Positions 44,583 to 63,538 of a stretch of 64,000 bases of DNA are shown one piece after another. Where the stretch lies: positions 558,001-622,000 of the forward strand of contig NZ_JALLGW010000002.1 of NCBI RefSeq assembly GCF_023074835.1. Direction: 5' to 3'. Both the position numbers and the translations under genes were made by a program. A model generated the notes under the pieces. It was not told the origin of the DNA. It saw only the letters and a program-made list of their open reading frames with translations, and did no database searches. Origin of the DNA: Halomarina salina. Lineage in GTDB: Archaea; Halobacteriota; Halobacteria; Halobacteriales; Haloarculaceae. Within the stretch, counting starts at the first letter, position 1, and each line of letters begins with the position of its first letter.

Positions 44583-44607
44583 GATAGACTTGTGCCGCGA
44601 GTCTATC
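44583..44607 (+). repeat. Cassette repeat 1 (collapsed short form)
   Basis: GATAGACT and AGTCTATC flank TGTGCCGCG, so only the outer arms remain. The stop codon of the minus-strand gene at 44606 overlaps its right arm. Confidence 0.8.
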
Positions 44608-44833
44608 ACTTGCTCTGCGTCGCCGAACTATCACGGTAGGTTCTGATTTTGTGTATGCCGTACACTGCAAGCCCTATCGAGAACACGTAATAAAGCAGCG
44701 CGGGCGACCCATCGTAGTAGCTCCCTGTCACGCGAACCTCCGCAAACGGGTGGCCGTAGGTCACCGCAAACCATACCGTTGAGAGGACGCCGACGAGGAC
44801 GCCTGAGATACCTCCCCGGAGCTGCTCGTCCAT
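44606..44833 (-). CDS. Small membrane protein, 75 aa
   Basis: MDEQLRGGISGVLVGVLSTV begins a first membrane helix, and LLYYVFSIGLAVYGIHKI forms the second; the loop between them is YGHPFAEVRVTGSYYDGSP. No family recognised. The stop codon lies inside repeat 1, and the minus-strand upstream region holds the TATA-like GCTATTTG. First cassette of the array. Confidence 0.6.
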   Translation of the reverse strand: MDEQLRGGISGVLVGVLSTVWFAVTYGHPFAEVRVTGSYYDGSPALLYYVFSIGLAVYGIHKIRTYRDSSATQSK

Positions 44834-44880
44834 GATAGTGAGTGTTCAGTACTGCATCACAAATAGCTACCTGACTACAC

Positions 44881-44943
44881 GATACACCCACGCTCTAAGT
44901 CTCTCGACCGGACCGAGTGAGCGACGCGTGCCGCGGGTCTATC
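44881..44943 (+). repeat. Cassette repeat 2 (full length)
   Basis: Full-length copy. The left end reads GATACACCC and the right end GGGTCTATC, so ACCC pairs with GGGT here where other copies pair ACTC with GAGT: a compensating change. The right end contains the stop of the 44939 gene. Confidence 0.9.
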
Positions 44944-45478
44944 GTTCGGAGACTGGTTCAAGGGTCGTTGACTCGGTGATGACAACCACTCCATCCGGGT
45001 CAGTCTCATAGACTTCCAGTCCCGCCCCACCTGTACTGGACTCGCCCTTCGAATATGTAATCCATATCCTCGCCCCCACGACCGCGAGCGTTCCGAGGAG
45101 GTTCTCCTGCGTGTGGTTGTCAACCAGTTCTGATGCAGTTCCGGGTGGAAAGTCCTGATATACCACTGACCGGGCCGGTGATGGGGCGACCGGGCGAACG
45201 GTGACTTCCCGACCCTCCGTTTCGACGGGCAGCTCGTCGGGTACGGTGTGGAAGTCCAGATAAATCGACTGCTCGTCCACCTCACGGTCCCAGCGTGGCT
45301 CCTCTGTGACGGAATGAGCGTAGTACCCCACCTGATGCTCGCCGTCGCTGACCAGCACTGCGTCTCCTGACGAGATTCCCAACTGGTCCATCACTGCTGG
45401 GTGGAGCCGACACCACCCCTTCTGGACGTCTCCGATGAACTGGCGAGCGATTCGCAGGTGAAGCTTCGACTCGGCCAT
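44939..45478 (-). CDS. Orphan CDC48/VAT N-domain-like (double-psi beta-barrel) protein
   Basis: The start at 45478 (MAESKLHLRIARQFIGDVQK) gives 179 aa. FIGDVQKGWCRLHPAVMDQL followed by GISSGDAVLVSDGEHQVGYY strongly resembles the N-terminal domain of CDC48/VAT AAA ATPases, with the aspartate, arginine and GD turn of the first barrel half. There is no AAA ATPase domain; the C-terminal part (GTLAVVGARIWITYSKGESS) is unassigned. It could be a substrate-adaptor mimic or regulator of CDC48. Its stop lies in repeat 2. Confidence 0.6.
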   Translation of the reverse strand: MAESKLHLRIARQFIGDVQKGWCRLHPAVMDQLGISSGDAVLVSDGEHQVGYYAHSVTEEPRWDREVDEQSIYLDFHTVPDELPVETEGREVTVRPVAPSPARSVVYQDFPPGTASELVDNHTQENLLGTLAVVGARIWITYSKGESSTGGAGLEVYETDPDGVVVITESTTLEPVSER

Positions 45479-45533
45479 TGAGGTAGAGTTTGACAACGAA
45501 CACCAAGACGGTTGCCCTGAACCGTATCGAAGT

Positions 45534-45594
45534 GATACACCCACGCTCTACGTCTATCGAACGGGCAGAGTGAACGACGTGTACTGCAGTGAGG
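45534..45594 (+). repeat. Cassette repeat 3
   Basis: Left arm GATACACCCA, loop CACGCTCT, right arm TACGTCTATC; the distal end is degenerate (ACTGCAGTGAGG). It lies between the divergent genes starting at 45478 and 45630. Confidence 0.85.
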
Positions 45595-45629
45595 AACCTA
45601 CAAATCAATTGTACCTCTACTGAACAATT

Positions 45630-45908
45630 ATGAACCGCTCTCATCATGAGCCCAGCTCGGACAAGCTGGGCATTCCGCTTCCAGCTATCGTCGGCGGCAT
45701 ACTCTTTGGCCTGACACCGACAGTGCTTCTCATCTACCGAGTGAGACGAGGCGGCCCGGTACCACGCTGGGTGTTCGTGGTCGCACCGTTCAGTGCGCTG
45801 TTCCCGCTATTCATGGCGTATGCGGAATTGAAATTCCGGTGCGACGAGGAGTTTCGCCAGAAGGCCTACGAGGTACACCAGCGACACAAGGAGAACACGC
45901 AGCGATAG
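45630..45908 (+). CDS. Small two-helix membrane protein, 92 aa
   Basis: MNRSHHEPSSDKLGIPLPAI leads into a first helix (VGGILFGLTPTVLLIYRV), a basic RRGGPVPR loop, a second helix (VFVVAPFSALFPLFMAYAEL), and a charged tail. No family recognised. The stop TAG is supplied by the GATAG start of repeat 4. Confidence 0.6.
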   Translation: MNRSHHEPSSDKLGIPLPAIVGGILFGLTPTVLLIYRVRRGGPVPRWVFVVAPFSALFPLFMAYAELKFRCDEEFRQKAYEVHQRHKENTQR

Positions 45909-45953
45909 ACTCACGCTCTCAGTCTATCGATAGACACGTGCCGCGAGTGTATC
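45904..45953 (+). repeat. Cassette repeat 4
   Basis: GATAGACTCA, CACGCTCT loop, TCAGTCTATC, then a shortened middle and GTGCCGCGAGTGTATC. It overlaps the stop of the preceding gene. Confidence 0.9.
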
Positions 45954-45997
45954 ATTCACCACAGAAGATACTTATCATGGATTGACTAAATTCGGAT

Positions 45998-46426
45998 ATG
46001 AAGCGCCGTGCCCTCCTCGCTGTCGGCTGTAGTGCCGCACTCGCCCTGAGTGGCTGCATTGGCAACACGAACAATCCGGGAGGTCAGACAAGCACTGCAG
46101 CGGTAGAGTCACCATCTACTGAAAACAGGACTGTGACACAGTTCTACAGGACGGCTATCTACTCCAAGAATTACACAAACGAGGCAGTGGAGGCAACTGT
46201 CCGTCTTGAGGGTCCACAAGAGACGTTGGTGCATGAGACACTTTCTCTCGAATCTGGTGAGGATGTCCGATTCAATGTAGAGCTACGACATCGGGTGAAG
46301 TACTACGTCATCGTCGAAGTCGATTCAAACCCGACTCAGCAACCAGTAACTCCTGATGGGGGGTTCGGTGGCATTGAAGTATTTTTTGAGGATGACGGTG
46401 TTGCAGTAGGTTCTGTCTGGAAGTAG
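45998..46426 (+). CDS. Lipoprotein, 142 aa
   Basis: MKRRALLAVGCSAALALSGC is a signal peptide with lipobox LSGC; a Thr/Ser/Asn linker follows. The core (TVTQFYRTAIYSKNYTNEAV, VEATVRLEGPQETLVHETLS) looks like a beta-sandwich. TATA-like CTTATC lies 27 bp before the ATG. Some features resemble the 46628 product (both carry a VTQ beta segment and a vertebrate-like Ig pattern is possible), but homology is uncertain. Confidence 0.68.
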   Translation: MKRRALLAVGCSAALALSGCIGNTNNPGGQTSTAAVESPSTENRTVTQFYRTAIYSKNYTNEAVEATVRLEGPQETLVHETLSLESGEDVRFNVELRHRVKYYVIVEVDSNPTQQPVTPDGGFGGIEVFFEDDGVAVGSVWK

Positions 46427-46509
46427 TCCGACGTCCCATAGACAGGTCTACGGCGAAAGCATGCTTTCCGAGAGGTCATCAGAATAGTCGGCCTCGGTCC
46501 GAGATTTCT

Positions 46510-46572
46510 GATACACTCACGCTCTGCGTGTATCGAATGGACCGAGTGAGCGACCCGTACAGCGAATCCATC
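46510..46572 (+). repeat. Cassette repeat 5
   Basis: GATACACTCA, CACGCTCT loop, TGCGTGTATC. GATACAC and GTGTATC pair fully, unlike the GATAGAC/GTCTATC form: compensating G/C swap. Confidence 0.9.
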
Positions 46573-46627
46573 ACCGAGTACTTCGATTCACAGAAAGGTA
46601 CTTACCGAAATTTACGAATAGCAGCAT

Positions 46628-47107
46628 ATGAATCGACGCGCCCTCCTCACGTCGTTGAGTATTCTGCCAGCCTCAGCTTCCGCGGGGTGTACGTCACTCG
46701 GTCGAGAACTATTCGGGACGGACGACGCTGAGACGCCAGACCCGCTGTTCCTTCAGAACGACGTCGATGAGGTTCACGTGCTCACAGTCACAGTAACTCA
46801 ACCTGCAACTGAGACCACGCTCATCGAGGGAGCGTTCAGGCTCCCCGGACGACACTTCGTTCGATTCCCCGAGATTGGCGTGACGGGTGAAACGTACACT
46901 ATTCGAGCGTCTACCGTGGATGGAGCGTCCGTCGAGGAACGTTGGATGCCGGACCCGTGTTCAGCGGTCACAGGACAGGCAGCCGTCATTCGCGTTACCT
47001 CATCCGGGTTGAGATACGACCAGAACGGCTGTGACGTGTATACTCAGCAACCATCGTTCGAACTCTCACCTGAGGAAGCAGCAGTCACCAGTTCGGGAAG
47101 TGAGTAA
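46628..47107 (+). CDS. Lipoprotein-like exported protein, 159 aa
   Basis: MNRRALLTSLSILPASASAG, then C-TSLG, gives a signal sequence and lipobox-like SAGC. The body (VDEVHVLTVTVTQPATETTL, then FPEIGVTGETYTIRASTVDG) is predicted beta-rich with two later cysteines (PDPCSAV, NGCDV) that could form a disulfide. TATA-like CTTACC lies 27 bp upstream, identical in spacing to the previous cassette. Confidence 0.65.
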   Translation: MNRRALLTSLSILPASASAGCTSLGRELFGTDDAETPDPLFLQNDVDEVHVLTVTVTQPATETTLIEGAFRLPGRHFVRFPEIGVTGETYTIRASTVDGASVEERWMPDPCSAVTGQAAVIRVTSSGLRYDQNGCDVYTQQPSFELSPEEAAVTSSGSE

Positions 47108-47137
47108 GCGACAATCCTCGATTCGTCCCTTCATGTT

Positions 47138-47184
47138 CGACTCACGCTCTGAGTCGCTCGTTCGACGCGTGCCACGAGTGTATC
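47138..47184 (+). repeat. Cassette repeat 6 (arm variant)
   Basis: Arms CGACTCA and TGAGTCG pair perfectly around CGCTC; the usual GATAGACTCA/TGAGTCTATC has changed on both sides together. Ends GCCACGAGTGTATC. Confidence 0.85.
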
Positions 47185-47238
47185 GGTGGCCAGCGAGCGC
47201 CCGAAAGCTTATTCGATAACACATTGACACGCAACTGA

Positions 47239-47727
47239 ATGAGCTACGATTGGTCCCGTAGAACGTCCCTTCAGGCGGCGTGGGGCATTGGAGTCGTCAG
47301 TGTGGTCGCTGTGTACGTGGTCAGTGTGTTCTGGACGTACTATGGGTTGCAGTCGGCGGGATATCTCGCCCTCGGGGTTACGCTCGGCGTTCCACTGCTT
47401 GCTCTCGTGAGTGGCCCCACAGGAATTTGGCAACGTCGAACCGTCTTCGCATTGTTCGTATTCGGTGTAGTTGCCCTCATCGTTGGGGTCATCGGGTCAG
47501 GAGTGGTGAGTGCGCTCACTGCACCAGTGAACCCCTCAGAGTACTACTACGGGTTCGACTACGACTGGACCACCAACACGCTCCGATTCGGACTCACCCG
47601 AACAGGAGCGGTCTACGACAGCACTGTTCATCCAAATCGAGGGTCCGTACTACTCGGTGCACTCGTCATCGCACTGGGTCTCTATGGCCGACTCCCAGAA
47701 CGGTGGGTGGGCCAGATACAGGAGTGA
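47239..47727 (+). CDS. Membrane protein with about four helices, 162 aa
   Basis: MSYDWSRRTSLQAAWGIGVV begins the first helix; further helices run near residues 37-58, 68-92 and 135-152. An external-looking loop, NPSEYYYGFDYDWTTNTLRF, precedes the last helix. TATA-like CTTATTCG lies 31 bp upstream. The stop TGA is the TGA of the TGATAG that begins repeat 7. Confidence 0.62.
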   Translation: MSYDWSRRTSLQAAWGIGVVSVVAVYVVSVFWTYYGLQSAGYLALGVTLGVPLLALVSGPTGIWQRRTVFALFVFGVVALIVGVIGSGVVSALTAPVNPSEYYYGFDYDWTTNTLRFGLTRTGAVYDSTVHPNRGSVLLGALVIALGLYGRLPERWVGQIQE

Positions 47728-47780
47728 TAGACTCACGCTCTGGGTCTATCAAAACCGGCAAGCGATGCGACGAGTGTATT
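47726..47780 (+). repeat. Cassette repeat 7 (second subtype)
   Basis: GATAGACTCA, CACGCTCT, TGGGTCTATC, then AAAACCGGCAAGCGATGCG, a different middle from the main class. Repeats 24, 26 and 30 share CCGGCAA or CGGCAA in the same place. Confidence 0.85.
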
Positions 47781-47907
47781 TCGACCAGCTATAGTACGAT
47801 TCTGCTGTTAGAGCCGTGGCGTATTTGTAGTTACACCCACTGGTCGCCTCTCAACTTTCGAATAGTGTGGCTGTGGGTGGGAATTTGATGTTCGGCGCGT
47901 ATCGCTC

Positions 47908-48084
47908 CTACTGACGTGCATTCTCCACCATTCCATAGATAATCGCAATGGAGGCGCCCAAGACTAGCGGTGAATCGGAAATCGGAAGCAGGTCCATCAC
48001 GAGAACGACGCTTACGCTCACCACAATCAACGACCCACACATCGAGGCGAGTCGTCTCCAAGAGGGAAGAGCGTCGAATCGCAT
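47908..48084 (-). CDS. Small membrane protein, 58 aa
   Basis: Reads MRFDALPSWRRLASMCGSLI at the N-terminus, with one helix at about residues 15-33 and a second (LVLGASIAIIYGMV) at 40-53. TATA-like GATTTATCC lies upstream on the minus strand. It is the only plausible gene in this interval; low complexity is absent, which supports it. Confidence 0.5.
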   Translation of the reverse strand: MRFDALPSWRRLASMCGSLIVVSVSVVLVMDLLPISDSPLVLGASIAIIYGMVENARQ

Positions 48085-48176
48085 ATGTAGTATTCAAACC
48101 GGGTGGATAAATCGATTCTGCTGACAGCTCCAATCCATCACACTTGCCAGCGCAGCGGACAACCGTCTTCCTGCCC

Positions 48177-48227
48177 GGTAGACCCACGCTCTGAGTCTTT
48201 CGAACGAGCGTGCGACGTGTGTGTCGA
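48177..48227 (+). repeat. Cassette repeat 8 (degenerate)
   Basis: GGTAGACCCA, CACGCTCT, TGAGTCTTTC, then a shortened right half ending GTGTGTGTCG. The remaining gap to 48396 contains TATA-like ACGTATATTTAA (about 48353) for the next gene and nothing else recognised. Confidence 0.75.
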
Positions 48228-48396
48228 TAATGGTGATAGGTCAACGTTAGTAGAAGTGTCTGGCCGGGCCTTTAGGTGAGTTGCCATGCCTTGTGGTCAC
48301 AGTTCGATATCCCTCGGTAGGACTCACAGCGTTTCGCCAGATGATGGACAGAAACGTATATTTAATCAAATTGGTAAACTCTTCACAGCCAATAGT

Positions 48397-50036: not shown

Positions 50037-50037
50037 T

Positions 50038-50100
50038 GATAGACCCACGCTCTGAGTCTCTCGACCGGACCGAGTGAGCGACGCGTGCCGCGAGTGTATC
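50038..50100 (+). repeat. Cassette repeat 9 (full length)
   Basis: GATAGACCCA, CACGCTCT, TGAGTCTCTC, the ACCGGACCGAGTGAGCGACG middle, and GTGCCGCGAGTGTATC: one of the most complete copies, almost identical to repeats 2 and 20. Confidence 0.93.
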
Positions 50101-50106
50101 GGTCGA

Positions 50107-50319: not shown

Positions 50320-50930
50320 GGCGAATCAATACGTCACTACGAGATGGTTCGACCTTTGATTCTCGGAGCGTGAGAAGACTCGGCATGAGTGCCTTTGCGT
50401 GACCAACGCTCTGCTCAACACCCTACTGCCTCCACTACCGGACAGGTCGTACTTGGGGAACGGCGCAGCACATCCATCGGGAGCGAATAGAACGGGGGGC
50501 CGATGGGGACGAGGTAAACAACCGAGTGCCTCTGACAGCGTGGCCCCAGTTGGGGCATACTCAGCCTTGGCATGTAAGGCTACTGCTATGAACAATCTCA
50601 TGAGATAACGATACCACCCAGTAGTAGAAGCACCCTCTGTTAAATCGCGCAACACGTAGATACGTTTATATATCCAGTATCCTGAACCACCGCTGTCCGG
50701 TGGCGTCGCCGAGGGTCGTTCACAAGTGGACGCCCGTGGTCGTCTTGGCCGATGCACCAGCGACGGACGGTGACGCCACGGACATTCCTTGCTCGACACG
50801 ACCGCTAATAACTCTGTGTGACCGCCCGATGTACAACCCGCCCGCACCGTAGGTCAGTTAGTCTCGTGAGACACTCACGCTCTGCGTCTCTCGTTCAGTT
50901 CAATCAACGGAATGGTCGTAGACTGGGGGT
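50320..50930. other. 611-bp gap: unidentified, possible decayed mobile or RNA segment
   Basis: No convincing gene. A minus-strand reading frame ending at 50326 (MRLFIAVALHAKAEYAPTGA) is weakly protein-like but unfamiliar. A strong TATA-like TTTATATATCC near 50665 precedes a GC-rich structured stretch (CCACCG/CGGTGG hairpin near 50691-50707) of about 120 nt that could be a small RNA. A degenerate half repeat (ACGCTCTGC) is at about 50405. Confidence 0.3.
50868..50900 (+). repeat. Cassette repeat 10 (left half only)
   Basis: GAGACACTCA, CACGCTCT, TGCGTCTCTC. GAGACAC and GTCTCTC pair partially; the right half is missing. It lies 30 bp before the stop of the 50931 gene. Confidence 0.75.
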
Positions 50931-51312: not shown

Positions 51313-51375
51313 GATTGACTAACGCTCTGCGTGTATCAAACGGACCGAGTGCGTGACGCGTGCCGCGAGTATATC
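51313..51375 (+). repeat. Cassette repeat 11 (full length)
   Basis: GATTGACTAA, ACGCTCT loop (first base changed), TGCGTGTATC, CGGACCGAGTG middle, GTGCCGCGAGTATATC. Confidence 0.88.
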
Positions 51376-51563
51376 AGTCGCGCTTCCGCTTATGGGTAGT
51401 ATCTCTACATGTTTGAACGCTCGCGTTAGGTATTCTGGATGAGAGTCTCAGACGTGTATTTATCTCGTCCACTGAGTCTCAGTGGTCTCTTCAATGAAAC
51501 TTTTGAGAGGTGCTATTGAGGGACAGCCATAGATGTCGACTACTCATTCCGCGGTCGATTTCC

Positions 51564-52232
51564 ATGATAGTTAGATTCAGCGTCCAAGAACGAACGCTCC
51601 TTCAGGCCCTTCGGGAGGTGCCTACGACGAGGGTTGTCTGGGAGGACATGAACATCACGGAGGATGGTGGAGTGGTGTTGTTGTTCTGGGCAGAGTCGGA
51701 TGATTTCGAGGCGTTCGAGGCAGCGATGCAGAACGACCCGACCGTCGAGTCCCCGCGCACGGTTACGACGTTTCGCAACCGACGGCTGTACCAAGCCGAA
51801 TACGTGGGGGGTGGGAGAGCGAAACGGGCACATTCTGCGCTCGTCGAGACAGGAGCCATCATTCAGGAGTGTGTGGGCACGCACAACGGGTGGACCTTAC
51901 AGATTGCCTTCCCGAGTCACGACGCCCTCCAACAGTACTATACGATTTTCGACGAGTCAGACATCCAGTTCACGCCCTTGGAGAAGTACGAGCAATCCGC
52001 TGACCGACTGCTCGATGAGTTCGGGCTCACTGCGAAACAAGAACAGATGCTGGCACTCGCTTCGGACCGAGGCTATTTCGACGTTCCCCGGAAGACGGAC
52101 CTCGACGAACTCGCCGATGAGCTGGGTATCTCTCACCAAGCGGCATCTGAACGGCTTCGCCGAGCGATGGACATCTTGGTTGGTCGGTCGGTTGGCACTG
52201 CCACAGCGTCCACATCGGAATACGAACACTGA
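51564..52232 (+). CDS. HTH-10 (bacterio-opsin activator type) regulator
   Basis: The start at 51564 (MIVRFSVQERTLLQALREVP) gives 222 aa. The N-terminal sensor-like region is followed by FGLTAKQEQMLALASDRGYF, VPRKTDLDELADELGIS and QAASERLRRAMDILV (residues about 152-210). Same architecture as the core gene at 10842, but lower third-position GC. The stop TGA is inside repeat 12. Confidence 0.85.
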   Translation: MIVRFSVQERTLLQALREVPTTRVVWEDMNITEDGGVVLLFWAESDDFEAFEAAMQNDPTVESPRTVTTFRNRRLYQAEYVGGGRAKRAHSALVETGAIIQECVGTHNGWTLQIAFPSHDALQQYYTIFDESDIQFTPLEKYEQSADRLLDEFGLTAKQEQMLALASDRGYFDVPRKTDLDELADELGISHQAASERLRRAMDILVGRSVGTATASTSEYEH

Positions 52233-52580: not shown

Positions 52581-52640
52581 CACGGCAGTTTTTCCTAAGG
52601 CGTTAGTCCCGAGCTGAGGAGAGTGTGACGAACTGTACTC

Positions 52641-52702
52641 GATTGACCACGCTCTGCGTCCATCGAACGAACCGCGTGACCAATATGTGCCGCGAGTGAT
52701 TC
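52641..52702 (+). repeat. Cassette repeat 13
   Basis: GATTGACCA, CACGCTCT, TGCGTCCATC; GTGCCGCGAGTGATTC at the right end overlaps the stop of the minus-strand gene at 52701. Confidence 0.85.
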
Positions 52703-52987: not shown

Positions 52988-53044
52988 GATAGACTCACGC
53001 TCTGCGTCTCTCGAACGGGCCAAGTAAGCGATGCGGGAGATTTA
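52988..53044 (+). repeat. Cassette repeat 14
   Basis: GATAGACTCA, CACGCTCT, TGCGTCTCTC, AACGGGCCAAGTAAGCGATG; the right end is eroded. Nine bases from the stop of the 53053 gene. Confidence 0.85.
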
Positions 53045-53052
53045 CACCAGTC

Positions 53053-53589: not shown

Positions 53590-53652
53590 GACAGACCCAC
53601 GCTCTCAGTCTCTCGATAGGGCCGCGTGAGCGACGCGTACCGCGAGTCTAAC
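53590..53652 (+). repeat. Cassette repeat 15 (full length)
   Basis: GACAGACCCA, CACGCTCT, TCAGTCTCTC, GGGCCGCGTGAGCGACGCG, TACCGCGAGTCTAAC. Confidence 0.9.
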
Positions 53653-53987: not shown

Positions 53988-54031
53988 GATACACTCACGC
54001 TCTCAGTGTCTCAACGGATAGTTTGACGCAC
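53988..54031 (+). repeat. Cassette repeat 16 (shortened)
   Basis: GATACACTCA, CACGCTCT, TCAGTGTCTC, then a reduced right half ending GTTTGACGCAC. It separates divergently oriented genes. Confidence 0.82.
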
Positions 54032-54068: not shown

Positions 54069-54572
54069 ATGAACCGCCGCCGGTTTCTCGGGGCGACAGG
54101 GGGCCTCCTCACGGCACTCGCGGGGTGTACCGCACTCGGTGGTGATGGACCACAGGGTCACCCCATGAGCGCGGGATACGAAGACAATCCCATCGTGTAC
54201 TCTAACGGCACCCTGCAGTTGACCGGCCCTGACCAACCGGTCCGTGCCGGTGACCACGTCGAATTCACGCTCAGGAACGTCGGCGATGAGACCATCGAGA
54301 GCGGCTGTGGAAGTTCGTGGACGATTCAGCGGAACGACGGTGAGTCGTGGCGCGAACTGATTTATACGACTGCCCGAGGTGGCGCTGGCTGCGCAGCCCC
54401 ACTCGCACCGGGCGAATCGCGGACGACACGACTCACGCTCGACAAAGCTGGTATCGAGGACAGCATCGGCGGCACACTCGTCGAGGAGTTCACGTCGGGA
54501 CAGTACCGGTTCGTGTGGCTCGGCACCGACCCGTTTCTCGCTGTTCGGTTCCGTATCGACGCCTCGCAGTGA
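54069..54572 (+). CDS. Tat lipoprotein with Ig-like fold, 167 aa
   Basis: MNRRRFLGATGGLLTALAGC is a twin-arginine signal ending in lipobox LAGC. The domain (YEDNPIVYSNGTLQLTGPDQ, PVRAGDHVEFTLRNVGDETI, ESGCGSSWTIQRNDGESWRE) has the beta-strand pattern and two cysteines of bacterial Ig-like domains. The stop TGA is the TGA of the repeat that follows. TATA-like TACTATTGG about 33 bp upstream. Confidence 0.72.
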   Translation: MNRRRFLGATGGLLTALAGCTALGGDGPQGHPMSAGYEDNPIVYSNGTLQLTGPDQPVRAGDHVEFTLRNVGDETIESGCGSSWTIQRNDGESWRELIYTTARGGAGCAAPLAPGESRTTRLTLDKAGIEDSIGGTLVEEFTSGQYRFVWLGTDPFLAVRFRIDASQ

Positions 54573-54633
54573 TAGACTCACGCTCTGAGTGTATCGACCG
54601 GACCGAGTGAGTGACCCGTGCCGCGAGTGTAAC
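54571..54633 (+). repeat. Cassette repeat 17 (full length)
   Basis: GATAGACTCA, CACGCTCT, TGAGTGTATC, CGGACCGAGTGAGTGACCCG, GTGCCGCGAGTGTAAC. It overlaps the preceding stop. Confidence 0.93.
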
Positions 54634-54668: not shown

Positions 54669-55286
54669 ATGCCAAAACGACGGGCCCTCCTGATTAGTCT
54701 GGTCATACTCTGTGTCGTCCTTTCGGGGTGTGGCGGGCTCAACACACAATCCACTCCTCAGGCTACAGTAACACCCGGTAGTGTCCCCACTGACCAGCAG
54801 GCATCCGTTACGACAACAGAACCGACGTCGACAGGCACTCTCACGCGGCCATTGCTCGGCATAGAGATTCAAAACGAACAGAATCGCTCCTACCAACTGC
54901 AGATGTTCTTCACGAAGGAACGCCTCTCCTCGGTCACTCTTCACTCGCGGACTGGGACAGTGAATCATTCGGTGGACAAGGACGATTCAATGTCGATACA
55001 ACTACCGAACGTCAGGCCCGCCGATAACATCAGTCGTGTCGTTCCGGGACATGAACCATCCCGAGTACTTAATTCGAGCATCTCGGGTGACGACGTTCGT
55101 TTTGGCCGGGTCCCCTCAGAGGAAGAGGTCTCGGTGCTTGTCGTCCTTCGAGCGAGTAATCAACCGACACGAGTTTCCGCAGTAGCCGGGCTTCAGTGTA
55201 CGGATGAGCGACGGCTTGATGGACTCCGTATCGACATCGTTGATGAGGACGCACTCACAGTCGGCGGGAGCTGCACAAGTGAATGA
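54669..55286 (+). CDS. Lipoprotein, 205 aa
   Basis: MPKRRALLISLVILCVVLSG followed by C gives a lipobox (LSGC) with a hydrophobic core longer than in the Tat-type cassettes, so Sec export is likely. A Thr/Ser-rich linker to residue about 60 precedes a beta-rich domain (LGIEIQNEQNRSYQLQMFFT). Two late cysteines. The stop TGA is supplied by the repeat's TGATAC. Confidence 0.68.
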   Translation: MPKRRALLISLVILCVVLSGCGGLNTQSTPQATVTPGSVPTDQQASVTTTEPTSTGTLTRPLLGIEIQNEQNRSYQLQMFFTKERLSSVTLHSRTGTVNHSVDKDDSMSIQLPNVRPADNISRVVPGHEPSRVLNSSISGDDVRFGRVPSEEEVSVLVVLRASNQPTRVSAVAGLQCTDERRLDGLRIDIVDEDALTVGGSCTSE

Positions 55287-55346
55287 TACACTCACGCTCT
55301 ACGTCTATCGAACGGGTCGGCGAACGACGCGTGCCGCGAGTCTACC
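55285..55346 (+). repeat. Cassette repeat 18
   Basis: GATACACTCA, CACGCTCT, TACGTCTATC, AACGGGTCGGCGAACGACGC, GTGCCGCGAGTCTACC. Overlaps the preceding stop. Confidence 0.92.
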
Positions 55347-55627: not shown

Positions 55628-55674
55628 GCCGGTTTCTACGATAGTGTCTGCTCACTGTCTCGCTGTTAGACCCA

Positions 55675-55727
55675 CGCTCTAAGTCTCTCGACCGGACCGA
55701 GTGAGCGACGCGTGCCGCGAGTGTATC
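55675..55727 (+). repeat. Cassette repeat 19
   Basis: GTTAGACCCA, CACGCTCT, TAAGTCTCTC, ACCGGACCGAGTGAGCGACG, GTGCCGCGAGTGTATC; from the loop onward nearly identical to repeats 2 and 9. Confidence 0.92.
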
Positions 55728-55775: not shown

Positions 55776-56198
55776 ATGAGACGGCTCCGGGAGTGGGGAG
55801 AGGCAGTATATACTCGATTTGAGGCGATGCCCGGGGGGTACGTGATGGGGCCGATTCAACTCCTGTTCGTGCTTCCGCTTCTCTTAGGAGCGGCGCTCAT
55901 CGACTTCCTCGTCGGCGAGACGTTCAGCGGGTATCTCTGGGTCATCTTGCTGGGGGCGAATGTCGCATTGGTACTCCTCTTTCTCGTTCTTGATGTCGGC
56001 ATTGAGCAGTTGTTTGCACGACTCCCGAACCCAGCGAGAGAGGGAGCAGGGGCGTACCTGTTGGTCGCTGCCTCCTTCATGTTCGTTGCCGCTGCCTTGG
56101 TGTACGCGACTGCCAACTCCGTCGAACCGGCAGTGTTGTTCGTCGGACTTGGCGTCGTAGCCATCGGCCGGTATGTCATCGACGAACGTGCAGCGTAA
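55776..56198 (+). CDS. Membrane protein with four helices, 140 aa
   Basis: The start at 55776 (MRRLREWGEAVYTRFEAMPG) gives a basic amphipathic leader, then helices near residues 25-45, 50-70, 88-108 and 113-133. IGRYVIDERAA ends the protein. The TAA stop lies in the GTAAGAC start of the following repeat. Confidence 0.62.
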   Translation: MRRLREWGEAVYTRFEAMPGGYVMGPIQLLFVLPLLLGAALIDFLVGETFSGYLWVILLGANVALVLLFLVLDVGIEQLFARLPNPAREGAGAYLLVAASFMFVAAALVYATANSVEPAVLFVGLGVVAIGRYVIDERAA

Positions 56199-56257
56199 GA
56201 CTCACGCTCTGGGTCGCTCAAACGGGCCGAGCGAGAGACCAGTGCCGCGAGTGTAAC
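56195..56257 (+). repeat. Cassette repeat 20
   Basis: GTAAGACTCA, CACGCTCT, TGGGTCGCTC, AACGGGCCGAGCGAGAGACC, GTGCCGCGAGTGTAAC. Overlaps the preceding stop. Confidence 0.9.
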
Positions 56258-56546: not shown

Positions 56547-56558
56547 AAAGCGGTCGAC

Positions 56559-56621
56559 GATACACTCACGCTCTGAGTCGGTCAAACACTTCCAATGGGA
56601 GACGCGTGCTGCGAGTCTATC
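56559..56621 (+). repeat. Cassette repeat 21
   Basis: GATACACTCA, CACGCTCT, TGAGTCGGTC, a divergent middle, CGTGCTGCGAGTCTATC. Wedged between two convergent stop codons (56546 and 56624). Confidence 0.88.
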
Positions 56622-56623
56622 GC

Positions 56624-56920
56624 TCAGGCAGTTGGTCGGTTCCGCCGAATACTCCACCCCAGATACGTGAATCCAGCGACGACGAAGACGGGGAGGATGA
56701 TTTCCAACCGACCGAGAAGGAAGGCGATGGAGAGCAGACCACCGAGAACGCCGACGACAGTCGCGTGTTCGCGGTCACCTCGCCGAACGAGGAAAGAGGC
56801 GGCACAAATCGCGGCGACACTCACGAGTCCGAAGAACAACTGGCCCTCAATGACCACCGCATACGCCAGCACGAGTATCGAGAGGAGGGCTGTCGCAACG
56901 ATTGCGCTGTAACGGTCCAT
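56624..56920 (-). CDS. Membrane protein with four helices, 98 aa
   Basis: MDRYSAIVATALLSILVLAY, VVIEGQLFFGLVSVAAICAA, then a charged RRGDREHA turn, VVGVLGGLLSIAFLLGRL and IILPVFVVAGFTYLGWSI. TATA-like GACCTATACC is upstream on the minus strand. Function unknown. Confidence 0.62.
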   Translation of the reverse strand: MDRYSAIVATALLSILVLAYAVVIEGQLFFGLVSVAAICAASFLVRRGDREHATVVGVLGGLLSIAFLLGRLEIILPVFVVAGFTYLGWSIRRNRPTA

Positions 56921-56964
56921 ATTCTAACCTATTTCTTGGAAGGGTATAGGTCTTCTCGCAAACT

Positions 56965-57013
56965 GATACACTCACGCTCTGGGTCTCGCATTCGATGCGT
57001 GCCGCGTGTGTAC
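56965..57013 (+). repeat. Cassette repeat 22
   Basis: GATACACTCA, CACGCTCT, TGGGTCTCGC, shortened middle, GTGCCGCGTGTGTACC. Confidence 0.85.
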
Positions 57014-57084
57014 CATTGCAACTCAGACGCATCCTTCATGTCCCCCAAAAGCACTTACCAGTTATTGCAGTAATATTAGCAAGT

Positions 57085-57684: not shown

Positions 57685-57705
57685 CCACCTGAGCGACGAC
57701 GAACT

Positions 57706-57740
57706 GATAGACTCACGCTCTGAGTCTATCATTACCGGCA
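57706..57740 (+). repeat. Cassette repeat 23 (second subtype, left half)
   Basis: GATAGACTCA and TGAGTCTATC form a perfect 10-bp stem around CGCTC, followed by ATTACCGGCAA. The rest of the gap to 57922 holds TATA-like GGTTATTTTG (about 57892) for the next gene. Confidence 0.88.
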
Positions 57741-57922
57741 AATATCTTCCATCCCCGGATTCGTGCCCGTCTACTAATCGCCAATATCGCCATCTCGACA
57801 TACTCCGACGACTCACTCATCTCCTGAGCGACGAATCCGATACCTGAATTACGCATCGATAGAATGGTCGTCACGCTGACTAGTCCGGTAGGGTTATTTT
57901 GTTGACACAGTATACATCTCCC

Positions 57923-58414: not shown

Positions 58415-58778
58415 CTACCCAGAGGGGTCTGACTGCCCTTCGCGGCTCAAGGCTCGCTCTCCTCGAACAGGTAATCCTCCCATCGCTCCTTCTACTCCTC
58501 GGTCACTATCAGGTTGACTTGGAGTTTCCTGCCGCCCATATCTTGTCCCCTGAATTACCAATCCCGAGCCATCTATATGAATCCTCTTGAGCAGAGATTT
58601 GATAACAAGTTCATCAGCTAGTCGCGCGGTTCTACCGGCCCTCTCGAACGAGCCATTTCTCGACCGACCTCGCAGGACGCTACCCACCCACAGACGTGTC
58701 ACGACGCCTGTGACAGTGTCACGTAGGCTGCGCGGAGCCATAAGGAGTTTATAGCGAGTAATGATATGTAATTACGAG
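58415..58778. other. Island right edge, no gene; boundary repeat and promoter of the next gene
   Basis: AT-richer sequence up to about 58600 contains no gene. The 21-bp boundary copy is at 58601-58621, after which GC-rich core-like sequence resumes. An inverted array GTGTCAC/GTGACAGTGTCAC lies near 58697-58724, and TATA-like TTTATAG at 58749-58755 is about 24-30 bp before the 58779 start. Confidence 0.55.
58601..58621 (+). repeat. Right copy of the 21-bp boundary repeat
   Basis: GATAACAAGTTCATCAGCTA plus G encodes the same Asp-Asn-Lys-Phe-Ile-Ser-stop as 44291-44311. It is followed by GTCGCGCGGTTC-type GC-rich sequence, so it may be the displaced original gene end. Confidence 0.65.
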
Positions 58779-59747
58779 ATGGCAGACGACTTCCCCGACT
58801 ACCTGGACGTCGACTACAGCGCCGGCGAGGGCGAGTCGCCCGAGGACTACCCCACGCTGGAGGACAAGATCGAGAAGGCCATCGAGGTCACGCGCATCGG
58901 CCTCGAACAGTACGAGAACCCCGCCATCATGTGGACCGGTGGGAAGGACTCGACGCTGACGCTGTACTTCGTGAAGGAGGTCGCCGAGCAGTTCGACATG
59001 GAGGTGCCCCCCGCCATCTTCATCGACCACTACCAGCACTTCGACGAACTGCACGACTTCGTCGACCACTGGGCCGAGGAGTGGGACCTCGACGTCGTCT
59101 ACGCCCGGAACACCGACGTCGGCGACTACGTCGAGGCGAACGGTCTCACGCCGGGCGACGACATCCCCATCGACGAGCTCAACGAGCAGAACCAGCACCA
59201 CGTCCGCAACCTGCTGGAGTACGAGGAGGACACCTTCCCGTTCCTGCTCGACACCTACGTCGGCAACCACCTGCTGAAGACCGTCGCGCTCAACAACGCG
59301 CTGGAGGAGCACGACGTCGACGGTATCCTCTCGGGCATCCGCTGGGACGAGCAGGAGGCGCGCGCCGACGAGACGTTCTTCTCGCCGCGCCACGACCCCG
59401 ACGTCTACCCGCCCCACGACCGCATTCAGTCCATCCTCCAGTTCGACGAGGCCGCCGTCTGGGAGGCGTTCTGGAACTTCGTCGTCCCGGAGACCGTCGA
59501 GGGCTACCCCGCGGGCCACGTCCCGCAGGACTACGACGACCTGCCGAACGACCTCACCCACGAGGACATCCCGGTCAGCCCGAAGTACTTCGCGGGCTTC
59601 CGCTCGCTCGGGAGCGAGATCTCGACCGACAAGTCCGCCGAGGAGCCCGCCTGGCTCCAGGACCTCGAAGGCACCACCGAGCGCGCGGGCCGCGCCCAGG
59701 ACAAGGAGGACCTGATGGAGCGCCTGCGCGACCTCGGGTACATGTAA
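58779..59747 (+). CDS. PP-loop phosphoadenosine-phosphosulfate-reductase-like protein (copy 1)
   Basis: The start at 58779 (MADDFPDYLDVDYSAGEGES) gives 322 aa. The PP-loop IMWTGGKDSTLTLYFVKEVA near residues 47-66 and IFIDHYQHFDELHDFV identify the PAPS reductase/ATP sulfurylase subunit CysD superfamily. YGVN-type cysteines of true PAPS reductase are absent, so an adenylyl-transfer or thiolation role is as likely as sulfate reduction. A paralogue begins at 63539, and the pair was probably adjacent before the array inserted between them (inference). Confidence 0.85.
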   Translation: MADDFPDYLDVDYSAGEGESPEDYPTLEDKIEKAIEVTRIGLEQYENPAIMWTGGKDSTLTLYFVKEVAEQFDMEVPPAIFIDHYQHFDELHDFVDHWAEEWDLDVVYARNTDVGDYVEANGLTPGDDIPIDELNEQNQHHVRNLLEYEEDTFPFLLDTYVGNHLLKTVALNNALEEHDVDGILSGIRWDEQEARADETFFSPRHDPDVYPPHDRIQSILQFDEAAVWEAFWNFVVPETVEGYPAGHVPQDYDDLPNDLTHEDIPVSPKYFAGFRSLGSEISTDKSAEEPAWLQDLEGTTERAGRAQDKEDLMERLRDLGYM

Positions 59748-60839: not shown

Positions 60840-61022
60840 GCCGGACCGTTCGGTTCCTCGACTGATAAGGTCGCCGCGAGTGACGGTGTCGCCGTTGTAG
60901 CGCGGTAGCGAATCTGTGCGTCCCAGTGAACACGGCCGCCGGGGCCGAGTCCACAGAAGTACTCCTCCCGACGATCGATTACCCAGGCACTCTCGTTCAC
61001 GTCCTTCGCACGTGATTCTCCG

Positions 61023-61047
61023 GACAGACTCGTGTCGCGAGTGTCTC
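61023..61047 (+). repeat. Cassette repeat 24 (collapsed short form)
   Basis: GACAGACTC and GAGTGTCTC flank GTGTCGC, the same collapsed layout as repeat 1. The right arm contains the stop of the minus-strand 61046 gene. Confidence 0.8.
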
Positions 61048-61225
61048 AGTCTCGTCTCGGGACGACGGCACTCACTTCGACGTCGTAGCGGTTGCCAGCA
61101 GGGGTGGTGTTGACCTCGTAGCCCCCTTCAACATCAACGCCGCCCAGTTCGGCGGCGTTGATGAGTTCTGCCAGTCGGTCGGTGAACGCGTCCCTGCTGT
61201 CGATGGTATCGGTGGTGTCGGACAT
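61046..61225 (-). CDS. Member of the 59-70-aa cassette protein family (copy 3)
   Basis: MSDTTDTIDSRDAFTDRLAE, LINAAELGGVDVEGGYEVNT, TPAGNRYDVEVSAVVPRRD; 59 aa. Closely related to the 52701-52880 product and more distantly to 50107-50319. It belongs to the array's second block, so the family bridges both blocks. Its stop is within repeat 24. Confidence 0.75.
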   Translation of the reverse strand: MSDTTDTIDSRDAFTDRLAELINAAELGGVDVEGGYEVNTTPAGNRYDVEVSAVVPRRD

Positions 61226-61458
61226 GGCTCATCGAGAACGAGCAATCCGCGATTCAGGGGTAGTGCACAGCGAAGTCGGTCTTCACAGGGAGGATACCAC
61301 GGCTCACAGGAACCGTGAGTCAATCGTTCACCCTGACCATCGAAGGCCACTCGGATAAGCTTATGTACTGGGTCACCACGCCGTGCCCCCCACGCTGAAC
61401 GACCGAGGCACCAGGCATGCCGCATCCTTAACAAAGGCGAGTGGTAATCCCACGCACC

Positions 61459-61695
61459 ATGGATGGGGTCGAGCCCACAGACGGCGTGCCGCTCACCGGG
61501 ATAGAGCGGGAGGTACTGTACACCGCGGTCGACGAAGGGTACTTCGGGGTTCCGCGGCGCATCTCGACAGTCGAACTCGCCGAGGCGGTCGGGGTCTCGA
61601 CTACCGCACTCACCGAACACCTCCGCCGTGGCATGACGAAGGTGCTGCGCGAGAAGATGCAGGAGGAACGTCCGTCCAGCAGGACCGAACGATAG
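61459..61695 (+). CDS. Stand-alone HTH-10 DNA-binding protein, 78 aa
   Basis: The start at 61459 (MDGVEPTDGVPLTGIEREVL) gives only the C-terminal HTH-10 domain of Bat-type regulators: YTAVDEGYFGVPRRISTVEL then AEAVGVSTTALTEHLRRGMT. No sensor region. It could compete with or partner full-length HTH-10 regulators. The TAG stop lies in the GATAG of repeat 25. A 233-bp region upstream contains no other gene. Confidence 0.72.
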   Translation: MDGVEPTDGVPLTGIEREVLYTAVDEGYFGVPRRISTVELAEAVGVSTTALTEHLRRGMTKVLREKMQEERPSSRTER

Positions 61696-61738
61696 ACTCA
61701 CGCTCTCTGTCTTCCAATCCCGGCAAACGACGTTCGCC
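61691..61738 (+). repeat. Cassette repeat 25 (second subtype)
   Basis: GATAGACTCA, CACGCTCT, TCTGTCTTCC, then AATCCCGGCAAACGACG. It sits between two convergent stop codons (61695 inside it, 61740 two bases beyond). Confidence 0.85.
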
Positions 61739-61739
61739 T

Positions 61740-62294
61740 TCATTTTACGGTGGGGCGATTTGACGTGGCGACCGGCTTCGACTCGGGGGGTCGAACAAAC
61801 AGCCACCAGCCGACCAGTATCCACGACAGGCCGTAGACTGAGACGCCGAACGAAAACAGCGGTGTCACCAGCGCATTCACGAGTGGGTCAAGCGGGAGCG
61901 CGGCGCTGAAGCCGACCGCGAGCCACGACGGCATCGCGTCCAGTTTCCAGAGTCGATGGGCGAGCTTTCCGGTGCCGAGTGCGACCAGCACCATCCCAAC
62001 ACCTGCTGGGAGTCCGGTGAGGAGAACGAACGCGATACTTCCCGCCGTCAGGCGGGCCCACGTGAAGATGAGGGCCGCGACGAGCAAGAACCCCAGTCCG
62101 CTGGCCATGAGCACGATATCTGACCGGCTGGTGTCGTAGGTGCGGTGAATCCCGTACACACCACCGGCGAGGAGCAGTGGGAGGATGCCAACCAGCAGTT
62201 CGTAGGTCGGATAGATACCGTCCAGGAGCGGAACGAGGGCCCACAACAGACCGCCGCCGATAGCGGTTATCCCAGAGAGACGGCGCAGTTCCAT
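61740..62294 (-). CDS. Multi-helix membrane protein, 184 aa
   Basis: The start at 62294 (MELRRLSGITAIGGGLLWAL); a GTG four codons upstream is the alternative. Five to six hydrophobic segments, with YGIHRTYDTSRSD and AHRLWKLDAMPSW loops. Resembles small haloarchaeal integral membrane proteins of unknown function. Its stop adjoins repeat 25. Confidence 0.62.
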   Translation of the reverse strand: MELRRLSGITAIGGGLLWALVPLLDGIYPTYELLVGILPLLLAGGVYGIHRTYDTSRSDIVLMASGLGFLLVAALIFTWARLTAGSIAFVLLTGLPAGVGMVLVALGTGKLAHRLWKLDAMPSWLAVGFSAALPLDPLVNALVTPLFSFGVSVYGLSWILVGWWLFVRPPESKPVATSNRPTVK

Positions 62295-62374
62295 AGGACC
62301 ACTCACATGTCGTGTGGTAAACTCTTTCTGACAGGCGATTCGTGATATCTCCAGATACTGGGACCGTTCGGTTC

Positions 62375-62437
62375 GATAGACTCACGCTCTGCGTGTATCG
62401 AACGGGTCGAGTGAGCGACGTGTGTCGAGAGTCAAGC
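62375..62437 (+). repeat. Cassette repeat 26 (full length)
   Basis: GATAGACTCA, CACGCTCT, TGCGTGTATC, AACGGGTCGAGTGAGCGACG, TGTGTCGAGAGTCAAGC. Confidence 0.9.
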
Positions 62438-62488
62438 AGAGCTATCGGGGAGAGAAGGTACTTGTCAGCCGAGTTGTGACTCCCTGAT

Positions 62489-62680
62489 ATGATAGCAATT
62501 GATGTCGACGACGTCGTCACGATGGGGTTCGCGTTCTTCGGGAGCGTCGGCACTGCTGCTATCGGAGCAGCGCACGACGTCCCGTATCCGCTCGCTGTCC
62601 TTCCCGGTCTGCTGATTGGAGCGGCTATCGGTACCTACCTACTCGGCCCGCTGTCGACCCCCCGCGAGGAAACTGGGTGA
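62489..62680 (+). CDS. Small two-helix membrane protein, 63 aa
   Basis: MIAIDVDDVVTMGFAFFGSV, then YPLAVLPGLLIGAAIGTYLL. TATA-like GTACTTGTC lies about 28 bp upstream. No family recognised. Confidence 0.58.
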   Translation: MIAIDVDDVVTMGFAFFGSVGTAAIGAAHDVPYPLAVLPGLLIGAAIGTYLLGPLSTPREETG

Positions 62681-62709
62681 CGTCGAACTGCGGTCGAGCA
62701 GAGTGAAGT

Positions 62710-62771
62710 GAGAGACCCACGCTCTGCGTGTATCGGCGGGTAGAGCGGACGACTCGTGCCGCAAGTGTAAC
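62710..62771 (+). repeat. Cassette repeat 27
   Basis: GAGAGACCCA, CACGCTCT, TGCGTGTATC, GGGTAGAGCGGACGACTCG, TGCCGCAAGTGTAAC. Confidence 0.88.
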
Positions 62772-62816
62772 AGTGGACGAACGCTTACCTGTCATCGGAT
62801 GGTACGTTTCGATACC

Positions 62817-62987
62817 ATGCCCAAACCCAGTCGGCGCGTCTTTGCTCTACTGTCGCTCTGTTACGCAGTTCTGGTGCTGGTGGCTATTGACGAAGGGGAC
62901 CTCGCTAAAGCCACTCAATGGACAGCTATCGGTGTAACGGTGACTTTCGGGTTGTGGTGGTGGAACTCCGAGAGCCCAACCAACTGA
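62817..62987 (+). CDS. Small two-helix membrane protein, 56 aa
   Basis: The start at 62817 (MPKPSRRVFALLSLCYAVLV); an in-frame ATG at 62799 is possible. Second helix ATQWTAIGVTVTFGLWWW. TATA-like CTTACC lies 33 bp before 62817. The stop TGA is the TGA of the TGATAC starting repeat 28. Confidence 0.55.
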   Translation: MPKPSRRVFALLSLCYAVLVLVAIDEGDLAKATQWTAIGVTVTFGLWWWNSESPTN

Positions 62988-63027
62988 TACGCTCACGCTC
63001 TCAGTGTATCGATGCCCCTGTGCTGCA
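62986..63027 (+). repeat. Cassette repeat 28 (shortened)
   Basis: GATACGCTCA, CACGCTCT, TCAGTGTATC, then a short right half GTGCTGCAG. Confidence 0.85.
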
Positions 63028-63081
63028 GATCTGACGAGCACTGTGCGTCAATCGTCTGTCGTAGTGGCTCCCAATCTGTGT

Positions 63082-63321
63082 TCAGATATCGCTCTGAATC
63101 GCTTGCTGAAGGCCGCTCATGAACGACGTGAACGCGACGACGACGCCGATGATGAAGAACAGTCCGTTGAACCACCACCCACCGCCCGAAACTGACCCCG
63201 TGTTCGGATTCGCTTTCATGTATCCGTACCAATGGTACGATTCGAAGGTGTAGAGCATCACGAACAGACCAAGAGCTACACCAAGACCATACTTCACGAA
63301 GGTCAGTGAATCGGTGCTCAT
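63082..63321 (-). CDS. Small two-helix membrane protein, 79 aa
   Basis: The start at 63321 (MSTDSLTFVKYGLGVALGLF). Two hydrophobic helices flank a Gly/Asn-rich loop, GYMKANPNTGSVSGGGWW. TATA-like AAATATACGG lies upstream on the minus strand. Function unknown. Last gene of the array. Confidence 0.6.
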   Translation of the reverse strand: MSTDSLTFVKYGLGVALGLFVMLYTFESYHWYGYMKANPNTGSVSGGGWWFNGLFFIIGVVVAFTSFMSGLQQAIQSDI

Positions 63322-63376
63322 CACCAGTGTTCAGCTATATCCCCGTATATTTGTTCTCATTGTCTAGTTCGGAACG

Positions 63377-63419
63377 GTAGATTCACGCACTCAGTCTAGC
63401 AATCTCGGCAACCGACGTA
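63377..63419 (+). repeat. Cassette repeat 29 (second subtype, terminal)
   Basis: GTAGATTCA, CACGCACT (one loop change), CAGTCTAGC, AATCTCGGCAACCGACG. The final copy; core-like sequence follows. Confidence 0.75.
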
Positions 63420-63538
63420 GACGGCAGTGACGGACGCTATCCACCGACATAGCCGGCCGACAAGGTGATGAAGGCGGATAGTGTCCTGTCGACAAGCGTA
63501 CCCGATGCCGCTCGTCGGCATCGACGCTGATCACACCC

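Follow-up and report, generated by a model that had tools for sequence, protein, structure and literature searches.

To our knowledge, no platforms other than integrons are widely known for collecting and shuffling single-gene cassettes. In elements of the Tn1549/Tn916 type, the mobile unit has binding arms in inverted orientation at its ends, with a 5-7 bp crossover between the arms. Integrons have also been reported from archaea (Ghaly et al. 2022, PMC9668308). In phiCh1 and phiH1, the Int1 gene lies between inverted repeats in an inverting segment, and the module flips two tail-fibre genes (PMC6210493). In Haloquadratum, the PATEs are derived from IS605-type elements and the SMRs are of uniform sequence (PMC3119063).

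The window analyzed here is the whole 64,000-nucleotide stretch from Halomarina salina. A sequence-only reading had described one integron-like cassette array in it, built from at least 29 copies of a structured repeat. Using the 17-bp h1 core with at most 4 mismatches, 25 clear copies were found between 44,881 and 63,400, all on the + strand, while the same search of the − strand of this interval gave 0. By chance, 1.3 copies are expected on average and 50 dinucleotide-model shuffles never gave more than 4; the probability of a single orientation is about 6e-8. Degenerate copies (near 52,640) and unpaired h2 cores (44,583 and 61,023) raise the total to near 29, in agreement with the earlier count and orientation. 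The repeat family is real, but each copy consists of two separate core sites and a linker rather than one structured repeat. Likewise, the cassettes are arrayed, but in two arrays (44.55-57.75 kb and 61.02-63.42 kb) and not in one; the stretch between them has a gene at 58.7-59.7 kb that recurs beside the array of another species. Table 1 lists the features.

Both cores are of the tyrosine-recombinase type, with a 7-bp spacer between two 10-bp arms: ACGCTCT in h1 and GTGCCGC in h2. The linker from h1 to h2 has a fixed length of 18, 31 or 74 bp, and a cassette spans from h2 to the next h1. Copies at the array ends are h2 alone or h1 alone. Over the genus, 106 of 115 neighbouring h1 pairs have the same orientation, and genes do lie on both strands as first noticed (best ORF on + in 63 and on − in 46 of 109 cassettes). 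Site copies frequently sit directly behind + strand stop codons. Most of the window cassette proteins tested have no significant Pfam match. A defence-island reading was rejected because PADLOC gave no match for ten proteins of the region.

Table 1. Sites and cassettes of the two arrays (positions in the window).
Feature	Position	Strand	Remark
attI-like left end L (TTTCTTTCA-N..-GACTCAGCTGATAGAC) and first h2 core (44583-44607)	44551..44607	+	L motif also on both sides of integrase gene (L013/L055/L056)
Cassette 1, 75-aa ORF on −	44592..44896	+	99.7% identical copy stands alone at C1:884475
Cassette junction: h1 (44881-44905), linker, h2 (44919-44943)	44881..44943	+	
h1, linker, degenerate h2	45534..45596	+	
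Compact junction, h1/h2 abutting	45904..45953	+	
Cassette gene, lipoprotein-like, 142 aa	45998..46426	+	No Pfam match
h1, linker, degenerate h2	46510..46572	+	
Compact junction, h1 and h2	47135..47184	+	
Cassette gene, 162 aa	47239..47727	+	Stop TGA is first bases of next site
h1, R-type sequence (AAAACCGGCAAGCGATGC), h2 remnant	47726..47785	+	
h1, degenerate h2	48177..48234	+	
Junction h1, linker, h2	50038..50100	+	
h1; h2 degenerate	50868..50892	+	
Junction h1, linker, h2	51313..51375	+	
Cassette gene, BAT/HTH_10 regulator	51510..52232	+	
Degenerate h1, h2	52640..52702	+	
h1, degenerate h2	52988..53050	+	
Junction h1, linker, h2	53590..53652	+	
h1; h2 degenerate	53988..54012	+	
Junction h1, linker, h2	54571..54633	+	
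Junction h1, linker, h2	55285..55346	+	
Junction h1, linker, h2	55665..55727	+	
Junction h1, linker, h2	56195..56257	+	
Junction h1, linker, h2	56559..56621	+	
Cassette common to another Halomarina species (G052, L111)	56606..56980	+	91.5% identity over 375 bp, flanks unrelated
Compact junction, h1 and h2	56965..57014	+	
Last h1 of array 1, R-type right end (ATTACCGGCAA)	57706..57745	+	
First h2 of array 2	61023..61047	+	
h1, R-type end (AATCCCGGCAAACGACG)	61691..61735	+	
h1, linker, degenerate h2	62375..62437	+	
Junction h1, linker, h2	62710..62771	+	
h1; h2 degenerate	62986..63010	+	
Last h1 of array 2, R-type right end (AATCTCGGCAACCGACG)	63376..63420	+	

Cassettes have been transferred from one locus to another and from one species to another, the breaks lying inside h2 and h1, and the cassettes differ from one orthologous platform to the next. 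Four full-length cassettes are present again, with 91-100% identity, at an unrelated locus or in another Halomarina species, ending exactly at GTGCCGCG and CACGCTCT between unrelated flanks. In all four, the breakpoints fall within the 7-8 bp spacers at both ends, and the linkers and outer half-sites stayed behind. Among the platforms, L084 and L101, with L015, agree in their flanks and differ in their cassettes, the breakpoints lying at h2 and h1, and L055 and L056 are 99.9% identical as far as h1, beyond which the cassette differs. About ten cassettes at L012 face one at L107, and the window shares its flanks with L087, the array regions being about 14.4 and 5.4 kb. At the L101 locus, the platform is absent in three species. 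A comparison for cassette turnover had been proposed as a check; gain, loss and replacement of cassettes between species all occur with breakpoints inside the repeat. The cassette reading was right, on stronger grounds than its author could know; "integron-like" holds for the behaviour and fails as membership of the integron family.

No integrase had been visible in the window, but one is encoded elsewhere in the same genome, a 280-aa tyrosine recombinase at C1:1975813-1976652. In this genome, H. oriensis and H. rubra, its gene lies between two divergent attI-like L sites, at most about 120 bp away on either side, and cassettes begin there; a recombinase beside such arrays was another check suggested. 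Its catalytic set is intact, with R, K, HxxR, W and Y invariant. By fold it is most similar to Tn1549 Int and XerA, and the homologues are confined to haloarchaea, their viruses and plasmids. The closest studied relative is Int1 of virus phiCh1 (42-45% identity over about 217 residues, E down to 3e-53). From its position and distribution, this recombinase is likely the agent of cassette exchange. No close integrase was detectable in the site-bearing genomes G052, G053 and G057.

A search for type-1 repeats, those of Halomarina, in other genera came up empty, after which a second site type was derived from integrase flanks. These type-2 sites belong to a second integrase clade (at least 5 families) and stand at fixed offsets on either side of the gene; homology between loci ends at them, and both of their ends resemble inverted repeats. 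The type-2 core occurs in 84 of the 146 genomes and 18 of the 22 genera of the family searched, and none was found in the phiCh1 flanks. A third clade (L166-L184) is probably another element, since it is without both site types and its members have longer neighbourhoods in common.

We consider it probable that site-specific recombination at two cores, h2 on the left and h1 on the right, runs the region as a platform for gene cassettes. The inner arms of h2 and h1 would be part of the cassette, and the outer arms, which are the L and R half-sites, part of the chromosomal locus. The phiCh1 Int1-related enzyme may bind the arms as double-stranded DNA, and strands would be exchanged within the 7-bp spacers, each core recombining with its own kind (h2 with h2, h1 with h1). 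As the spacers of h2 and h1 are not alike, a cassette would enter in one orientation, a locus would never be emptied, and an incoming cassette would replace or join the resident. One crossover, at h2 or h1, would add or remove a cassette with its linker, so that arrays grow or shrink, while crossovers at both cores would swap the cassette and leave the flanks intact. The single-crossover addition is deduced only from the tandem arrays, as neither linker moved in the four shared cassettes. Arrays without an integrase, such as those of the window, would be served in trans. At some loci the array is flipped with respect to L and R (the outer arm is R at 9 h2 and L at 8 h1), and two-core exchange alone does not explain this.

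The flipped arrays bear on a rival that we regard as unlikely, namely that cassettes are transposon-like units with h2 and h1 as terminal inverted repeats, whose circles insert into a palindromic target without target duplication, in the style of Tn916/Tn1549. It would accommodate the two orientations found with respect to L and R, the sharing of the cassette without its linker in all four cases, the inverted-repeat look of type-2 ends and the Tn1549 integrase as best fold match. However, L was joined to R around one core in 0 of 348 classified sites, and pattern searches of 8 genomes for an empty target, with a gap of 0-10 bp, found none. The sole candidate with locus-type arms on both sides, L-h2-L, is located at a contig end. 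Moreover, the spacers here are fixed and the left differs from the right, whereas the coupling sequences of Tn916 are variable, and discrete insertion does not predict an inter-cassette linker of fixed length.

The exact breakpoints also make it very improbable that a dispersed non-autonomous repeat (MITE, PATE or SMR) or a terminator family is involved, with exchange by homologous recombination between repeats. The many copies, often behind stop codons, would suit it, haloarchaea do have PATEs, as well as SMRs whose insertion into palindromes leaves no target duplication (PMC3119063), and this genome carries four Y1 transposase genes. One of these (C1:1437690-1438037) is about 6 kb from a small array (L017), and none of the four was seen between array sites. 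But spacers of 7-8 bp are too short for homologous recombination, terminal copies are single cores, sites stand at fixed distances around a recombinase gene, and an Rfam search with the element gave no match. The cargo is unrelated between copies; an IS200/IS605 or PATE element would be uniform, with a Y1 transposase linked to the sites. The MITE, REP and terminator alternatives offered earlier do not explain how unrelated genes are exchanged exactly between flanks that stay the same.

Hardly any more credible is a true integron variant, in which the junction is a single-stranded attC hairpin and the integrase recombines the folded strand with attI. It draws on the cassette layout, the attI-like site adjoining the integrase and the ends of the 26 long linkers, 11 of which match RYYYAAC and 14 GTTRRRY, mostly in sister species. 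These boxes had been called absent, which holds for the short linkers of this genome (0 of 44). Against the variant, 150 h1, 117 h2, 71 cassette-end pairs and 38 full junctions gave no convincing arm covariation, and no compensatory pairing was found in local and long-range folds. The fold of the 74-bp linker is not significant, the 26-linker consensus being within one s.d. of column-shuffled alignments. The folded single-stranded attC model was rejected on these two grounds. One h2 column pair reached z=4, with 2 compensating sequences only. No IntI model is among the NCBIfam matches of the integrase at E<=1, which are weak, XerA/XerC/XerD-type and far under the cut-offs; among the PDB sequence matches IntI4 (2a3v) comes last, as the weakest, and by fold it stands below Tn1549 Int and XerA. 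With neither an IntI match, including the IntI-specific domain, nor an attC-like fold or covariation, and with a linker that stays when the cassette moves instead of gene-plus-attC movement, the system is not an integron.

Returning to two-core exchange, we lean towards a haloarchaeal form of cassette exchange independent of integrons, with a catalytic-domain-only recombinase related to phiCh1 Int1, two non-matching cores, slots always filled and at least two site dialects (Halomarina type 1 and type 2 of the second integrase clade). The open-access papers searched yielded no description of such a system. A second system with another recombinase, other sites and probably another strand chemistry would show more than one evolutionary origin of cassette capture and account for part of the strain-to-strain gene turnover in haloarchaea. 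Through the arrays, hundreds of orphan genes become approachable, and the two-core exchange rule is a prediction testable in genetically tractable haloarchaea.

When compared with the known systems, the 10-7-10 core is dif-like in size, but a dedicated recombinase is flanked here and the sites differ between genera; in Xer/dif modules, host XerCD or XerA acts on identical dif sites. PATEs and SMRs are also palindrome- or inverted-repeat-ended and mobilised in trans without target duplication; here, the ends are constant, the cargo is variable and the sites are associated with a tyrosine recombinase. Tn1549/Tn916 shares the inverted-arm ends and provides the best structural match of the integrase, whereas here conjugation genes are lacking, left and right spacers are fixed and different, cassettes encode no recombinase and arrays have fixed linkers. 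The Int1 of phiCh1/phiH1 is homologous in the catalytic domain, and its gene too lies between inverted sites (here the divergent L sites, and type-2 sites in the sister clade), but many unrelated genes are arrayed here and swapped between loci and species. Common to this system and integrons are arrayed gene cassettes, small and for the most part without annotation, with recombination sites between them, an attI-like site adjoining a tyrosine recombinase gene, and many arrays that lack an integrase, as CALINs do. The differences are that the recombinase is not IntI, that each cassette has two different cores where an integron cassette has a single attC, that a folded attC was not detectable, that genes occur on both strands, that the linker remained with its locus whenever an exchange was seen, that two divergent attI-like sites surround the recombinase gene, and that platforms were never seen empty. 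Since the enzyme likely at work is a dedicated recombinase that is not related to the integron enzyme of bacteria, the Halomarina arrays look like an independent archaeal counterpart of the integron.

Between 44 and 64 kb of the window, 25 copies of the repeat were found on the + strand and none on the - strand, when compared with 1.3 expected by chance over both strands, and GC content drops from about 0.69 to 0.55-0.61 across most of the array region. At least 29 copies had been claimed in the sequence-only reading; their single orientation is borne out, with 25 as our count. More arrays of the same family are carried by this genome, Halomarina salina (G000), in which the window spans C2:558001-622000. 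A PAPS-reductase-like copy follows each of two window arrays, and related sequence also adjoins arrays in relatives (loci L087, L081 and L091). Separately, two C2 segments about 40 kb apart, beside an array locus, suggest a duplicated segment.

Each repeat copy consists of two sites of 25-27 bp: h1, the right-hand core site of a cassette (TGATASACYC-ACGCTCT-NNGTCTAACA), and h2, the left-hand one (TGTTAGACNN-GTGCCGC-GAGTSTAWCA), with arms given as the Halomarina consensus. The outer arms in G000 are mostly GATAGAC/GTCTATC or GAGCGAC/GTCTCTC. An array starts with h2 alone, preceded by the attI-like sequence L (TTTCTTTCA-N..-GTGACTCAGCTGTTAGAC), and ends with h1 alone, followed by the sequence R (GTCTAACAAAACCGGCAATCGATGCA); every complete site has one locus-type and one cassette-type arm. 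Across the genus, including H. oriensis JCM 16495 (G054) and H. rubra ZS-47-S (G056), 106 of 115 neighbouring h1 sites at most 3 kb apart are co-oriented. Linkers joining h1 to h2 within arrays measure 74 (+/-1), 31 or 18 bp, with a few exceptions (26-32 bp); the long linker is R then L, and G000 typically has the short ones. The lengths are quantised in the arrays examined, and the 43-bp step comes near to four turns of the helix; a fixed nucleoprotein complex may lie behind this.

The cassettes have a median length of 603 bp (n=121) and a GC content of 0.56. Genes lie on both strands, as had been claimed: of 109 cassettes, 63 have their best ORF on + and 46 on -. Convincing Pfam matches were obtained for only a few of the window cassette proteins searched (HTH_10 regulators and DUF7344). 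When the 121 cassettes were compared all-against-all, four full-length matches at different places were found (see the table), and in all four identity spans GTGCCGCG to CACGCTCT and collapses beyond. Where orthologous flanks were compared, identity stops at the sites and the cassettes are unlike each other; at the L101 locus the platform is absent in three species (G051, G053 and G055), the flanking genes being 65-608 bp apart. Cassette gain or loss with breakpoints inside the repeat, which the sequence-only reading had proposed to look for, was thus found both in the shared cassettes and at orthologous loci, and cassettes are almost certainly exchanged at h1 and h2.

Shared cassettes, compared loci and other features (C, contig; G, genome; L with number, locus)
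Feature	Location	Observation
Shared cassette	window cassette 1 / C1:884475	99.7% identity
Shared cassette	window 56606-56980 / G052 C4	91.5% identity
Shared cassette	L011 / H. oriensis L104	93% identity, 1564 bp
Shared cassette	H. rubra integrase-locus cassette / H. oriensis L098	100% identity, 232 bp
Compared loci	L101 (H. oriensis) / L084 (H. rubra)	aligned left up to h2, right from h1; cassettes between differ
Compared locus	L015 (G000)	flanks common to L101/L084 locus
Compared loci	L055 / L056	99.93% identity across the 8.5 kb that end at h1; unrelated past h1
Compared loci	L012 / L107	flanks in common; about ten cassettes vs one
Compared loci	window array / L087 (G057)	orthologous flanks; array regions about 14.4 vs 5.4 kb
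Integrase candidate	C1:1975813-1976652 (L013:4813-5655)	280 aa
Divergent L (attI-like) sites	L014 9043(-) and 9264(+) (C4 about 84.0-84.3 kb)	about 220 bp apart, no integrase between
Tandem L-h2 units	L058:3382-3480 (H. oriensis)	two units, one L-h2-L; end of 3.5-kb contig
Type-2 sites, G000	C1:1443315, C5:35269, C5:47450	first within type-1 array locus L017
PAPS-reductase-like gene	window 58761-59747	
Partial second copy	window 63539-64000	77% over 300 bp
Segment pair, G000	C2:405157-407780 and C2:445075-447698	equal match scores to one query

A PF00589 search gave ten tyrosine recombinases in G000. One of them, the integrase candidate, is flanked by a divergent pair of L sites that both head an array (order R'-cassette-L'-int-L-cassettes-R), and the same layout occurs in H. 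oriensis and H. rubra. The recombinase gene beside the arrays that had been suggested as a check therefore exists, and the earlier statement that no integrase is visible is qualified by a gene encoded outside the window. Residues R100, K167, H226, R229, W252 and Y261 are invariant. The AlphaFold model (mean pLDDT 74.7) is confident from residue 61 except for the last 20 residues or so, and its closest folds are Tn1549 Int and XerA. This integrase family is probably the agent of cassette exchange. At L014, where both sites of the divergent L pair head an array, an integrase locus seems to have lost its gene.

No palindromes with a 0-10 bp gap were found in the eight genomes searched. The site arms lack covariation and the linker does not fold, and therefore double-stranded recognition is favoured. 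Since the two conserved spacers are unlike, exchange is predicted only between two h2 or between two h1 sites, a step we infer; it would account for constant orientation, for filled slots, for arrays growing by a cassette and a linker at a time, and for replacement that keeps the flanks. We give such a two-core double-stranded exchange somewhat better than an even chance. Among the 348 sites classified there is no L-core-R site; the sole double-L case, in the tandem units of L058, is at a contig end and is the only candidate emptied site. Room should be left for an insertion route like that of Tn916, in view of the flipped arrays (outer arm R at 9 h2 sites and L at 8 h1 sites) and of the sharing of the cassette only in the four shared cassettes.

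All 62 loci of the integrase family in GTDB genomes are haloarchaeal, and members are also carried by plasmids and viruses of haloarchaea, among them phiCh1, phiH1, ChaoS9 and HCTV-5. In the tree, clade 1 (Halomarina/Halobium) has type-1 sites, the Halomarina dialect; the type-1 label of L180 is probably a motif-score artefact. Clade 2 (20 integrases) spans at least five families, and type-2 sites, a different dialect (TGCTGAATATAGAGNNTG), were scored near 15 of these genes. The sites stand on both sides of the gene at nearly fixed offsets (background 0.08 per kb per strand), and mutual homology of the loci ends at them. Type-2 cores are present in 84 of the 146 genomes and in 18 of the 22 genera searched, with about five hits in the control. 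For example, G119 has a type-2 array in one orientation, two junctions of which share an identical linker. G000 has type-2 sites as well as type-1 arrays. Clade 3 (26 integrases; L166-L184) has neither type; near-identical members occur across many genera and share a 3-7 kb neighbourhood, and the clade is probably a separate mobile element.

No description of such a cassette system was found in the open-access papers searched. The archaeal integron survey of 2022 relied on IntI profiles and on models of attC sequence and structure (PMC9668308), so detection of the Halomarina system would not be expected. Haloquadratum SMR-A elements have repeats of about 110 bp and inverted ends, and insert into palindromes without target duplication (PMC3119063); because the integrase is also present in a Haloquadratum MAG (L158), comparison with the type-2 system may be worthwhile. 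The cassette system behaves like an integron, but no IntI domain was found in its recombinase and no attC-like folding in its sites, and in the four shared cassettes the linker did not travel with the gene. The recombinase belongs with Int1 of phiCh1, whose gene is central between the inverted repeats of a tail-fibre switch (PMC6210493).
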